Below are positions 7,548 to 46,133 of a DNA stretch of 64,000 nucleotides, piece after piece. The number at the start of each line of letters is the position of its first letter. The first letter of the stretch is position 1. The notes below the pieces were generated by a model. That model was given only the letters and a program-made list of their open reading frames with translations, ran no database searches and was not told the origin of the DNA. The stretch is from Polynucleobacter sp. MWH-Svant-W18 (GTDB taxonomy: Bacteria > Pseudomonadota > Gammaproteobacteria > Burkholderiales > Burkholderiaceae): assembly GCF_018687495.1 (NCBI RefSeq), contig NZ_CP061293.1, forward strand, positions 372,001 to 436,000. Direction: 5' to 3'. Position numbers and translations under genes: made by a program.

Positions 7548-8152
7548 AAGGAGACTTGCTCTAAAGCTTTGAGTTCCTCGGGGGTGTTGACATTTGCAAA
7601 TGCATGAGCTTCCTCAAATACAACAGTGCCACTGCGCAGCTCTTTGAACCAACGATCAATCTTGAGATCACCTTTTTGTAAAAAGATTTCTAAAGATTCA
7701 TGCAAGTTGGTGCGCATCAAACAAAACACAGGTTGTGCCCACACCTTCCCATCAGCTTCTTTGCTTGAGGCGTAAACGAGTTGATAGTTACCTTGTTCCA
7801 GTTCATTAGCCATCCGAGAAGCCAAATCAAGGGGTAGCATGGGTGAATCGCACGGGGCACTCAATAAATATTGGGTCTTGCAGGCGCTTAGACCGGCCGA
7901 AAATCCGGCCAGTGGGCCAGAAAAGTCGGGAGTCTCGTCCATGATGACGGGGTAGCCATAAGCAGCATATTTTGTAACGTTGCGGTTGGCATTAATCAGC
8001 ATGGGGCCAACTTGTTTCTTGAGGCGCGTAATCGTCGAATCAATCAGTGGCTTGTTATGAAAGGGGATAAGCCCTTTATCAATACCGCCCATACGCTGCG
8101 CACGTCCGCCAGCCAAGATGAGTCCAGTAATGTGTTCAGCTGAAATCATCAA
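7544..8152 (-). CDS. mobA: Molybdenum cofactor guanylyltransferase MobA
   Basis: The 202-residue nucleotidyltransferase attaches GMP to Mo-molybdopterin to form the bis-MGD cofactor of DMSO-reductase-family enzymes. The GTP-binding motif [13 protein letters not shown] with downstream DKGLIPF, and the catalytic-region [10 protein letters not shown], are present. It overlaps moaA and moeA by four bases at each end, placing it in the middle of a tightly coupled operon. Its presence implies that the organism makes at least one bis-MGD enzyme. Confidence 0.95.
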
Positions 8153-9276
8153 CCACCGATATAAGACATTTCGACCTTGCGACTACCTGTCGATAAGTTA
8201 GCAGTATGGGAGCCCCGAATCTCAGAGTAATGATCATCGCGTACTGACCAGGTATTCATGATCGCGTTGGCAATCTCTAAATCACTTTTACCAGACCGCA
8301 ACATGGTTTTGAAATCAAAGCCTTCATTAGCAAATAGACAGAGATACATTTGCCCATCAGTTGAAATGCGAGCGCGCGTACATTCGTGACAGAAGGTTTG
8401 GGTCACGCTAGAGATCACGCCAATTTCACCAGAGCCATCCACATAGCGCCAGCGCTGGGCAACTTCACCAGAATAATTCGCATCAACAGGTTCCAGCGGG
8501 AATACTGCATGGATTTTGGCAATAACTTCTTTTGAAGGTAATACCTCTGCCATATTCCAGCCATTAGAGCTACCCACGTCCATGAATTCAATAAAGCGCA
8601 GAATAACGCCGCTACCCTTAAATTGCCTAGCCATCGCAACAATCTCATGATCGTTCGTTCCTTTTTTCACGACCATATTGACCTTGATATTTTCAAAGCC
8701 CACTTCTTTTGCGGCGGCTATGCCATCCAAAACATCGGCTACTGGAAAGTCAACATCATTCATTTTTCTAAAGACAGCATCATCTAGGCCATCCAAGCTG
8801 ACTGTAAGTCTTTGTAAGCCTGCCGCTTTTAAAGCAGCAGCTTTCTTGCGCAGGATGCTGCCATTGGTGGTGAGAGTGAGATCGAGTGGCATGCCTTCAG
8901 GCGTACTCAATTTCGCTAGCATCTCAATCAGTACCTCTAAATTCTTACGCAGCAATGGTTCGCCACCAGTTAAGCGAATCTTCTCAACACCTAGCGTGGA
9001 AAAGATAGTAGCTAGGCGGGTGATTTCTTCAAAGCTAAGTAATTCTTGATGGGCGAGATAGGGGTAATTGTGATCAAACACTTCTTTAGGCATGCAATAA
9101 GTGCAGCGGAAGTTACAACGATCGGTTACAGAAATGCGTAGGTCATGTAAAGTGCGACCGCGCTTATCCAAAGTCTGGCCGTGAGGCGCAAGCAGTTGTG
9201 CGCCAATAGACGGCGTAAGGCCTTTGCCTTCATGAATACGAATGGGAATTACTTTGGGGTTAACTTTTTCAACCAT
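8149..9276 (-). CDS. moaA: GTP 3',8-cyclase MoaA (radical SAM)
   Basis: This 375-residue radical-SAM enzyme catalyses the first step of molybdopterin synthesis. The N-terminal 4Fe-4S cluster cysteines are C54, C58 and C61 ([10 protein letters not shown]), the GGEPLLR motif follows, and the second cluster sits in [11 protein letters not shown] with MYLCLF. The C-terminus ends in GG (SYIGG), the hallmark tail that enters the active site. About 40 extra residues precede the usual start. It leads the moaA-mobA-moeA operon; moaC is not in this window. Confidence 0.96.
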
Positions 9277-43275: not shown

Positions 43276-43806
43276 TTAGGGGGCTATACGTCTAGCCTCA
43301 GTAAATTTAGCGGCCCAGTAAGGTGAGGTGATGTAATCAAGGCGAACCGTGCCACCTGCGCTCGGGGCATGTACAAATCTTCCTTGACCCACATAAATCC
43401 CTGCATGGGAATATTTTTCACCAGTGGTGTTGAAAAATACGAGGTCTCCTGGTGCTGGAGCTTGACCTTCAATGCTTCTGCCTTGGCTGCTCATCAGTTG
43501 AATCGTGCGAGGCAACTTAATGCCCGCTGCTTTGTTGTAAACGTAGACGATGAGCCCACTGCAATCAAAGCCACCTTTTGGGGTATTGCCACCATAACGG
43601 TAGGGCACATCCACCAAGCCCACAGCCGCAATCGAAATATCTTCGGTACCAACGCTGGTGTCTTGTTTAAATTGAGCAACTTTTGACGGACCTGAGTTAC
43701 CCCGAAAAACACTACAGCCACTGAGTACCAGCAGAGTACAAATAAAAATGCCGCACCCTATGAGAGTGCGGCATGAGAGGGTTTGCTTAGAGTGCGTCAG
43801 CAGCAT
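43276..43806 (-). CDS. NlpC/P60-family cell-wall peptidase, lipoprotein
   Basis: The 176-residue product has a lipobox LSGC (C31), so it is probably anchored in the outer membrane. The C40 peptidase domain has catalytic C82 (GGFDCSGLIVYVY), H134 (YSHAGIYVG) and H146 (RFVHAPS). Relatives (Spr/MepS, NlpC) cut peptidoglycan stem-peptide bonds. The ATG chosen overlaps the end of phoH by 20 bases, which suggests translational coupling; a GTG eight codons upstream is possible but would lengthen the overlap. Confidence 0.9.
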   Translation of the reverse strand: MLLTHSKQTLSCRTLIGCGIFICTLLVLSGCSVFRGNSGPSKVAQFKQDTSVGTEDISIAAVGLVDVPYRYGGNTPKGGFDCSGLIVYVYNKAAGIKLPRTIQLMSSQGRSIEGQAPAPGDLVFFNTTGEKYSHAGIYVGQGRFVHAPSAGGTVRLDYITSPYWAAKFTEARRIAP

Positions 43807-45433
43807 GATCCGCAAGACGTGAACGTTCACCGCGTGCCAGAGTCACATGCCCACCATGGCGCCAACCTTTGAAGCGGTCCACGACATAGGTAAGACCAGA
43901 TGAGCCTTCAGTTAAGTAAGGAGTATCGATCTGCGCAATGTTTCCTAGGCAAACAATCTTTGTTCCAGGACCCGCACGGGTAACGAGCGTTTTCATTTGC
44001 TTTGGCGTTAAGTTTTGCGCTTCATCAATAATGACGAACTTACTCACAAAGGTTCTGCCGCGCATAAAGTTCATGCTCTTGACCTTGATGCGCGAACGAA
44101 TGAGTTCTTGAGTTGCAGCGCGACCCCATTCGCCAGCATCGTCATTGCGCTGGAGCACTTCTAAGTTGTCATCGAATGCGCCCATCCATGGCTGCATTTT
44201 TTCTTCTTCGGTGCCCGGTAAGAAACCAATGTCCTCGCCTACTGGAACGGTTGCTCGAGTAATGATGATCTCGTTATAGCGTTTACTATCCAGCACTTGT
44301 TCTAGACCTGCAGCCAGCGCTAACAAGGTTTTACCAGTACCTGCTTGACCTAAAAGGGTCACAAAATCCACATCTGGGTTCATGAGCAAGTTCATGGCGA
44401 AGTTCTGTTCACGATTACGTGCAGTTACGCTCCAGACATTGTTTTTCTGATGAGAAAAGTCTCTGAGCGTTTGCAGGAGAGCCGTTTTGCCGTTGATCTC
44501 CCTAACATGGGCATAGAAGGGAGTGGAGCCATCCGGATTTTCTTGATACACAAATTGATTGACTAGCATGCTCGGTACTGCGGGACCAGTAACTCGGTAA
44601 TACATCGTGCCAGACTTAGAGTCAGCCCAACTTTCCATATCTTTGCCATGCTTAGGCCAGAAGTCAGCAGATAAAGCCATCACTCCGGAGTACATCAAGT
44701 CACGATCTTCTAATACTTGGTCATTGAAGTAATCTTCAGCAGGTAGACCAAGTGCACGCGCTTTAATACGCATATTGATATCTTTCGATACCAATACCAC
44801 TTCTTGACCATTGCGAGTTTTTTGTAACTCGCTCACTACGGCCAAAATCATGTTGTCACCTTTGCCCTCTGGGAGTCCCTCGGGCAAGGCTTGAGTGGCG
44901 AGTTTGGTTTGGAAGAAGAGGCGACCAGAAACATCTTGGTTACCAAGCTTGTTTAGGGGAATGCCATCATCTAATGTGCCACTAGTACCGGCAATCAACT
45001 GATCTAAAGATCTGCTGACTGTACGAGCATTACGTGCAACCTCAGTCATCCCTTTCTTGTGGTTGTCTAATTCCTCAAGAGTGGTCATCGGTAAATACAG
45101 ATCATGTTCAGAGAAGCGGAACAATGAACTAGGATCATGCATCAACACGTTGGTATCGAGGACGAACAAACTTGGGGGTCCAGTGCGCACAACGCGTTTA
45201 GGCTTAGCTGGTGCGGCAGCCTTATGCTCATGGCGAGCGGGACTACGATCCGCCTTAATTTTTTCCAAGGCTACTTCAGCTGCAGATAAATCTTCTGCCA
45301 CATCATTAGTCCAATCGGAAGTTTCCATCACTACTGGTTTTGCTGGGGCGGGACGTTTCTTCAAATCTGGAGTGTCTTTGCGACTGAGTTTTACTTGATC
45401 AGCAATTTGAGTTGGGATGGGTGGCAATGGCAT
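43787..45433 (-). CDS. PIN-domain/PhoH-family ATPase
   Basis: The 548-residue protein has an N-terminal PIN nuclease domain (about 85-240, FVLDTNVLMHDPSSLFRF with acidic residues) fused to a PhoH ATPase (about 320-548). Walker A is LLGQAGTGKTLLALAAG and Walker B is KFVIIDEAQNL. This is the PhoH2-type architecture, linked to RNA unwinding and cleavage. The ATG at 45433 has a TAGGAGAG ribosome site 6 bases before it. The frame extends further upstream but would read through the leader terminator. Confidence 0.9.
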   Translation of the reverse strand: MPLPPIPTQIADQVKLSRKDTPDLKKRPAPAKPVVMETSDWTNDVAEDLSAAEVALEKIKADRSPARHEHKAAAPAKPKRVVRTGPPSLFVLDTNVLMHDPSSLFRFSEHDLYLPMTTLEELDNHKKGMTEVARNARTVSRSLDQLIAGTSGTLDDGIPLNKLGNQDVSGRLFFQTKLATQALPEGLPEGKGDNMILAVVSELQKTRNGQEVVLVSKDINMRIKARALGLPAEDYFNDQVLEDRDLMYSGVMALSADFWPKHGKDMESWADSKSGTMYYRVTGPAVPSMLVNQFVYQENPDGSTPFYAHVREINGKTALLQTLRDFSHQKNNVWSVTARNREQNFAMNLLMNPDVDFVTLLGQAGTGKTLLALAAGLEQVLDSKRYNEIIITRATVPVGEDIGFLPGTEEEKMQPWMGAFDDNLEVLQRNDDAGEWGRAATQELIRSRIKVKSMNFMRGRTFVSKFVIIDEAQNLTPKQMKTLVTRAGPGTKIVCLGNIAQIDTPYLTEGSSGLTYVVDRFKGWRHGGHVTLARGERSRLADHAADAL

Positions 45434-45441
45434 GGACTCTC

Positions 45442-45603
45442 CTAAAAGAAAAAACCGCCATGCGGAGTGCATTGGCGGTTTATTACGAAACTGGTTGCAA
45501 TGATTTCTAAAAAACGGAGGGGGTTATTCCCCGAACCTGTTCTGAAATATTCAGGTTTCTGATTCAAACGGCTTGTCAGACTTTCCCGTCGTTTACGGTG
45601 CAT
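45442..45603 (-). CDS. Possible leader ORF upstream of phoH
   Basis: A 53-codon frame starts at ATG 45603 (MHRKRRESLTSRLNQKPEYF onward). It runs through the terminator-like hairpin at 45453-45480 and stops with TAG at 45442-45444, which is the first part of the phoH ribosome site TAGGAG. A candidate promoter (TTGCAA-N16-TAAAGT) would start almost at its ATG. There is no clear ribosome site and no known family, so it may be untranslated. Confidence 0.25.
   Translation of the reverse strand: MHRKRRESLTSRLNQKPEYFRTGSGNNPLRFLEIIATSFVINRQCTPHGGFFF
45446..45480 (-). terminator. Terminator-like hairpin in the phoH leader (candidate attenuator)
   Basis: On the minus strand AACCGCCA-atGC and GC-ATGGCGGTT form an 8-11 bp stem followed by TTTTTTCTTTT, a textbook intrinsic terminator. 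It ends only 13-20 bases before the phoH ATG, and is preceded by about 180 bases with no gene. A terminator in this position must be leaky or regulated for phoH to be expressed. Confidence 0.7.
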
Positions 45604-45665
45604 ATGAATTACTTTACCCCAAATTTTAGGGTTTGCAAGCACCTCGGAACAAATTGTTGTAAAAA

Positions 45666-46133
45666 TTACTTGGTAGCCTGGGCCGCTTGTAATACCTCTG
45701 TCACATGACCAGGAACTTTAAGTCCACGCCACTCTTTTACGAGCTTGCCAGAGGAGTCAAAAAGGAAGGTGCTACGCTCGACTCCACGGACCTGTTTGCC
45801 GTACATATTTTTCATTTTCATGACACCAAAGAGTTGGCAAAGCTTTTCTTCAGTATCGGCAACCAGTTCAAATGGCAGCTCTAATTTGCTGCGAAAATTA
45901 TCATGAGACTTGAGGCTATCGCGTGATACGCCAACGATCAAAGTATTGGCTTTAGTAAATGCCTCAATATTGTCACGAAACTCACCTGACTCAGCAGTGC
46001 AACCTGGAGTCATATCTTTAGGGTAAAAGTACAGCACCAATTTTTTGCCTTTAGCGGATGCGGGAGAAAAAGTCAGTCCTGATGTTGCAGGAATGGCGCA
46101 CTCTGGCATGGATTGACCGATAGCTACTGTCAT
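45666..46133 (-). CDS. bcp: Thioredoxin-dependent peroxiredoxin (Bcp/PrxQ family)
   Basis: This 155-residue peroxidase reduces peroxides using the peroxidatic cysteine C45 in MTPGCTAESGEF. The E. coli resolving cysteine at position 50 is G here; C99 (EEKLCQLFG) is the only other nearby cysteine apart from C12. A one-cysteine or atypical mechanism is likely. It follows arnD on the same strand after 37 bases and is followed by the phoH leader. Confidence 0.93.
   Translation of the reverse strand: MTVAIGQSMPECAIPATSGLTFSPASAKGKKLVLYFYPKDMTPGCTAESGEFRDNIEAFTKANTLIVGVSRDSLKSHDNFRSKLELPFELVADTEEKLCQLFGVMKMKNMYGKQVRGVERSTFLFDSSGKLVKEWRGLKVPGHVTEVLQAAQATK

Follow-up and report, generated by a model that had tools for sequence, protein, structure and literature searches.

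In the pyrBI operon of E. coli, the leader ORF pyrL spans an intrinsic terminator and stops close to the first structural gene, and a closely coupled ribosome prevents the terminator hairpin (PMC5021804, PMC4824070); pyrL is the classic regulated case of a ribosome-repressed terminator (PMC5021804). Translating ribosomes of E. coli also repress, nearly completely, terminators located a few base pairs past a stop codon, an effect that is lost beyond about 27 nt (PMC4824070). The trpL RNA of Sinorhizobium meliloti begins at the AUG of its leader ORF, and the position of the ribosome controls termination (PMC7298713). Leaderless initiation itself differs from the canonical route in its dependence on 70S particles, initiation factors and initiator tRNA (PMC9031893). 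Among phoH genes, the nearest precedent is the mycobacterial phoAT-phoH2 pair, in which a short ORF lies directly upstream of a PIN-PhoH gene (PMC7390352, PMC4826407).

Here we describe the leader of phoH in the freshwater bacterium Polynucleobacter sp. MWH-Svant-W18 (NZ_CP061293.1) and its relatives. With a probability of roughly 0.77, as judged from sequence comparison, we regard it as a ribosome-coupled, pyrBI-type transcription attenuator with a leaderless leader ORF. Two of the four pyrBI-type features can be read from the sequence, namely an in-frame overlap of ORF and terminator and a predicted terminator between promoter and gene. The leader departs from pyrBI in its apparently leaderless ORF and in its target, phoH, and the two systems are unrelated in hairpin, peptide and lineage. 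The phoH leader would thus extend known pyrBI-type attenuation with a leaderless ORF. The initial annotation of this DNA knew of no leader described for PhoH2-type genes, and our search of the open-access literature, with most subscription papers outside its scope, likewise found no earlier description in these genera.

Coordinates are positions within the window, the 64,000-nt stretch that was analysed, and all features lie on its minus strand, on which the sequence from bcp to phoH reads promoter, ATG, 53 codons, TAG and phoH. The upstream gene, bcp (45666-46133), encodes an AhpC/TSA peroxiredoxin by domain match and is the neighbour in nearly all relatives. The putatively regulated gene, phoH (43787-45433), is of the PhoH2 type, with PIN_4 and PhoH domains in a Pfam search (PF13638, 3.7e-35; PF02562, 2e-47); the NCBIfam PhoH2 model matches it at 2.7e-72, but below the model's cut-off. 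Between them lies an upstream ORF (uORF; 45442-45603, MHRKRRESL...GGFFF*) with its ATG at 45603 and its TAG at 45444-45442; the same frame is also listed from an upstream GTG. Codons 41-51 form the terminator hairpin (45452-45481), called from fold energy and covariation, with the stem AACCGCCA...TGGCGGTT at 45453-45480 and an extra A-U pair at 45452/45481. The U-tract TTTTTTCTTTT (45444-45454), a conserved set of alignment columns, encodes the final residues FFF and enters the stop codon. Within TAGGAGAG (45437-45444) the uORF stop overlaps the phoH Shine-Dalgarno sequence, the TAG being the first three bases of TAGGAG and lying 9-11 nt upstream of the phoH ATG at 45433. A check against the sequence placed the terminator hairpin, the 53-codon ORF and the TAGGAG overlap exactly where the initial annotation had put them. 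Only about ten bases separate the end of the terminator from the phoH ATG; to reach phoH, transcripts from the conserved promoter would have to read through.

That annotation had also offered two candidate promoters, one of which stood. The sigma70-type promoter TTGCAA-N16-TAAAGT (45611-45638; TTGCAA 45638-45633, TAAAGT 45616-45611) recurs as TTG-N3-N16-TAAAGT in 56/56 Polynucleobacter leaders checked, 47 of them with TTGCAA. The other, TTGTTC-N18-TAAAAT (45652-45623), is present in the sequence but is not conserved and was rejected. The hexamer TAAAGT ends 7 nt upstream of the uORF ATG, and this spacing stays within 6-9 nt across 64 unique Polynucleobacter leaders. At such a distance the expected start site falls 0-2 nt before the ATG, so that the uORF would be leaderless with essentially no untranslated stretch; we thus infer that transcription starts at the uORF AUG or within two bases of it, much as in S. 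meliloti trpL. The resemblance to trpL ends there: trpL encodes a 14-residue peptide with Trp codons and forms mutually exclusive structures (PMC7298713), whereas the phoH uORF continues through the terminator.

The hypothesis put forward in the initial annotation was tied to conservation of the hairpin and the ORF in close relatives. Both are conserved in about 60 Polynucleobacter leaders, and both recur in other Burkholderiaceae. A search of 61 genomes of the genus recovered the PhoH protein in 58, and bcp-phoH leaders were taken from these and from a scan of public genomes. Of 64 unique leaders, 63 keep the uORF frame open as far as the U-tract, each of the other two frames being open in only 1/64, and the indels in the alignments are multiples of three. 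In 60/64 leaders 0-17 nt separate the end of the uORF stop from the phoH ATG downstream. Core-clade leaders mostly have a gap of 232-236 nt and keep CTTGCAA, GGTAAAGT, the ATG, the hairpin and TAGGAG; the one broken uORF among core leaders with otherwise conserved flanks is that of locus L102. Variants elsewhere in the genus include a uORF overlapping the phoH start (L014 and L134), a stop 3 nt before that start (L132), a shortened 21-codon ORF through a terminator in the divergent clade around L126-L139, and, in the divergent L136-L138, an ORF that persists without a clear terminator. In the group of L010 and L119-L121 the uORF stop directly abuts the phoH ATG, and an extra terminator directly after bcp isolates that gene, an arrangement suggesting that phoH is served by the leader promoter.

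The alignment of synonymous and nonsynonymous change that the initial annotation proposed, with substitutions inferred on a phoH-based tree, divides the uORF into two unequal parts. Codons 1-9 (45577-45603) have accumulated 18 substitutions, with a codon-position pattern of 1/5/12 and a w of 0.14, and codons 10-38 have accumulated 356, with a pattern of 108/126/122 and a w of 0.77. Codons 10-38 contain 0 stops in the 53-codon set against 8.9-13.4 expected under random substitution, a set that was selected for intact ORFs and that gains one stop (L102) when all core members are included. Since dN/dS over these codons does not single out frame 0 (0.77, against 0.98 and 0.61 in the other frames), the absence of stops and the in-frame indels were used as coding proof instead. 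Near-neutral drift of the peptide, together with an almost complete lack of nonsense changes, suggests that the act of translation, and not the peptide, is under selection. The first codons may be constrained by leaderless initiation, by CGA-CGG as a slow pair of rare codons, or by a role of the peptide.

A consensus fold of 60 leaders contains two helices. One is the mid-leader hairpin ACCUG/CAGGU at codons 16-23 (ACCTG...CAGGT, 45535-45556), whose five pairs are kept in 53-60 of the 60 sequences with double changes GC/AU/UA, CG/UA/GC and GC/AU. The other is the terminator, of which seven stem pairs are present in 60/60 sequences, one of them changing among C-G, U-A and U-G, and whose fold energy is about -13 to -17 kcal/mol in core leaders. 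A simple terminator scan overlooked this hairpin, apparently owing to its long loop region; the fold energies detected it, and the predictions place an intrinsic terminator between the promoter and phoH. A feature of pyrBI is UTP-dependent pausing upstream of the terminator. The phoH leader carries a conserved hairpin and a U-rich stretch in that position, and the hairpin may be an RNA polymerase pause hairpin. The consensus fold holds only these two non-overlapping hairpins, with no mutually exclusive terminator and antiterminator helices. As the two are compatible with each other, the leader is not a trp-type switch. An antiterminator noticed by eye, GACGG near the start pairing with CCGUC of the terminator, was discarded: the partner varies between CCGUC and CCGCC while GACGG stays constant, and the pairing is absent from the consensus fold. 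No regulatory codon run is conserved, the Polynucleobacter leaders having only an Arg/Lys-rich start that is absent in Burkholderia and Cupriavidus; neither kind of feature that might name a signal was found in the leaders. A search of Rfam gave no riboswitch, sRNA or leader family above gathering score in the phoH leader, and a trpB match (E 4.6) was rejected as resting largely on the terminator.

The same layout is found in Cupriavidus, Ralstonia, Pandoraea, Burkholderia, Paraburkholderia, Caballeronia, Pararobbsia and Mycetohabitans. Among 58 unique Burkholderiales leaders from outside Polynucleobacter, an ATG follows a -10 element (TATATT, TACATT, TATAGT and others) by 8 nt in 53, and 52 have the frame open across the terminator, compared with 20 and 16 for the other two frames. 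Open frames come cheaply in the GC-rich genera (simulated P(open) 0.28-0.92 per leader), where weight is placed on w, on the control terminators and on the counts for all three frames. The uORF peptides of Cupriavidus, Ralstonia, Pandoraea, Burkholderia, Paraburkholderia and Mycetohabitans are unrelated and span 36-162 residues; w is 0.18-0.44 over their first twelve codons and about 0.7 overall. Cupriavidus, Ralstonia and most Pandoraea leaders have the uORF stop at the phoH ribosome site or close to it. The uORFs of Burkholderia-type genomes mostly end 76-163 nt before phoH, still beyond the terminator, which in Burkholderia and Paraburkholderia lies about 180-270 nt before phoH, a distance that makes a second promoter downstream of it possible. 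A separate draw of the family showed the uORF-through-terminator layout in 35 of 40 further genomes, some of which are apparently the same species as earlier ones (for example L155/L024 and L159/L030), the count of 58 comprising unique sequences only. Beyond these genera, both the uORF and a comparable terminator are missing from Massilia and relatives, and in most other sampled Burkholderiales families the bcp-phoH gap is short or no leader is recognisable.

As a background, terminators in the window and in the fetched loci were scanned for the same arrangement. The window has 27 terminator-like sites on both strands, and the phoH leader alone has an ORF with a -10 and ATG running through. 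In the phoH loci of 79 relatives, 2 of 188 control terminators pass the same test as against 44 of 60 within the bcp-phoH gap; picking the longest ORF with an ATG close behind a -10 favours open frames somewhat, and the control terminators were scanned by a similar rule. The two passing controls (L014, minus strand, ~2240-2414; L078, minus strand, ~8124-8256) are probably due to chance.

The initial annotation had proposed that a ribosome on the uORF would melt the terminator and end at the phoH start, and the conserved frame, terminator, promoter spacing and stop position are all in keeping with such a mechanism. On the predicted leaderless uORF, a ribosome would load directly on the 5' AUG, and the mid-leader hairpin would probably slow RNA polymerase, letting the ribosome catch up. 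A ribosome following closely would cover the 5' arm of the terminator as it emerges, no hairpin would form and transcription would proceed into phoH; the ribosome would then halt within the phoH Shine-Dalgarno sequence, where it could also aid the phoH start. Were the uORF untranslated or translated late, the hairpin would form and transcription would end in the U-tract, before the uORF stop, leaving a nonstop RNA of about 155 nt. The output of phoH would in this way report translation of a leaderless message relative to transcription. The terminated RNA would be stopless like the arfA mRNA of E. coli, whose product is under trans-translation (PMC10107115); the truncated arfA product is itself the regulator, whereas here the regulated gene lies downstream.

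The nonstop product would be expected equally if the leader were a constitutive attenuator that sets a fixed low readthrough into phoH and mainly makes a short RNA, perhaps a dual-function, peptide-encoding sRNA. With a terminator about 155 nt beyond it, the promoter would yield such an RNA, the promoter and first 27 nt belong to the best conserved stretches of the leader, and the mid-leader hairpin is conserved as well. We nonetheless think this quite unlikely, since a small RNA has no need for the lack of stops and frameshifts in the otherwise near-neutral codons 10-38, and since an ORF through the terminator recurs in genera whose RNA sequence is unrelated. Protein-level constraint on the first nine codons, and on the first twelve in other genera, would suit a uORF whose product is a functional small protein, made together with PhoH2 and serving, like PhoAT, as its partner or antitoxin, the terminator only setting stoichiometry; in mycobacteria phoAT is co-transcribed with phoH2, and its product is an antitoxin-like protein that binds PhoH2 (PMC7390352, PMC4826407). 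The remaining codons, however, evolve at a w of about 0.7-0.8 and lengths vary from 21 to 162 codons, the peptides of different genera have no evident common motif and the four tested gave no NCBIfam match, and the terminated RNAs would lack a stop codon, all of which makes a functional small protein distinctly improbable. Compared by description, PhoAT also appears to differ from a uORF that is hardly constrained past its first codons and spans a terminator, and the weak peptide constraint argues against equivalence of the two.

Where the uORF stops at or near the phoH ribosome site, as in Polynucleobacter, Cupriavidus, Ralstonia and Pandoraea, it might simply deliver ribosomes to the phoH start, or cover nascent RNA against Rho, with the hairpin incidental. 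The leaders that retain the ORF without a clear terminator (L136-L138 and L144) fit such a role, and suggest that the uORF may do something besides antitermination. As the sole function we consider it unlikely: the ORF of Burkholderia and Paraburkholderia mostly ends well before phoH yet spans the terminator, and the hairpin pairs are held throughout the 60 sequences, with covariation. That the hairpin is an ordinary bcp terminator, with phoH transcribed from elsewhere and the open frame a coincidence, seems highly improbable. Although bcp lies directly upstream, and Herbaspirillum/Collimonas-type loci (L047, L058 and L180) have a terminator right after bcp and no uORF, there is no promoter space between hairpin and phoH, a conserved promoter lies upstream of the hairpin, the frame statistics would be unexplained and the L010 group carries a further terminator for bcp itself.

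For ribosome-coupled attenuation, most of the apparent exceptions fit once the stop position is considered. In L034 and L046 the uORF stops inside the terminator hairpin, with 14 nt left to the U-tract, and in L161 (8 nt), L074 and L079 within about 10 nt upstream of the hairpin; all five obey the E. coli rule of about 27 nt. L161 is one of the five non-conforming loci among the 40 further genomes. The others are L140, with no terminator and no uORF; L144, with a uORF and no terminator found; L163, with only a five-codon ORF ahead of a strong terminator; and L179 (genome G151), in which phoH is a pseudogene with ten in-frame stops and the full uORF and main terminator are both lost. We count the joint loss in L179 in favour of attenuation, together with L102, in which a broken uORF accompanies a fused phoH. 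Counted against it are the short ORF of L163, the ORFs that persist in L136-L138 and L144, the missing antiterminator and regulatory codon run, and the counter-example of L125 (G023), which keeps an intact uORF and leader before a phoH pseudogene with 6 in-frame stops. The fused phoH of L102 (genome G017) lacks a stop and continues into the NlpC/P60 gene downstream (717 codons from its start).

PhoH2 proteins are widespread and, to our knowledge, their role and control are poorly known. That the leader is conserved across Burkholderiaceae suggests a tie between phoH expression and translation; a testable prediction about the purpose of PhoH2 follows. The distinct requirements of leaderless initiation hint at a possible signal: with no Shine-Dalgarno sequence on the uORF, phoH would be made only if initiation at a bare 5' AUG keeps pace with RNA polymerase. 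It is conceivable, and we offer it tentatively, that the family-wide device makes PhoH2 expression report leaderless (70S-type) translation capacity and thereby couples a PIN-PhoH nuclease/helicase to the condition of the translation apparatus. The diverged leaderless ORFs through terminators also form a natural series for measuring transcription-translation coupling on leaderless mRNA.

Three smaller features of the Polynucleobacter leader deserve mention. The rare Arg codons CGA-CGG occupy uORF codons 5-6 (45586-45591), CGA in 44/44 and CGG in 43/44 leaders; they are used 4.0 and 2.8 times per 1000 codons and supply about 12% of Arg codon use in the window, and the stretch includes the 3' arm of a possible small hairpin, CCGU-AAACG-ACGG. 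Sensing of arginine codons was rejected, as the pair is near-invariant in Polynucleobacter but has no equivalent in Burkholderia or Cupriavidus leaders. About 60 nt before the main terminator, a terminator-like hairpin at 45509-45532 consists of GGGGAAUAACCCC followed by CUCCGUUUUUU; as a second terminator, GGGGAAUAACCCC...UUUUUU was dismissed on account of its confinement to a subclade. Finally, the promoter spacer (45617-45632) is palindrome-like in about half of the Polynucleobacter leaders (CCCCAAAATTTGGGG or GCCCAAAATTTGGGG; ACCCTAAAATTTGGGG in the window) and degraded in divergent groups of the genus, and is possibly an operator.
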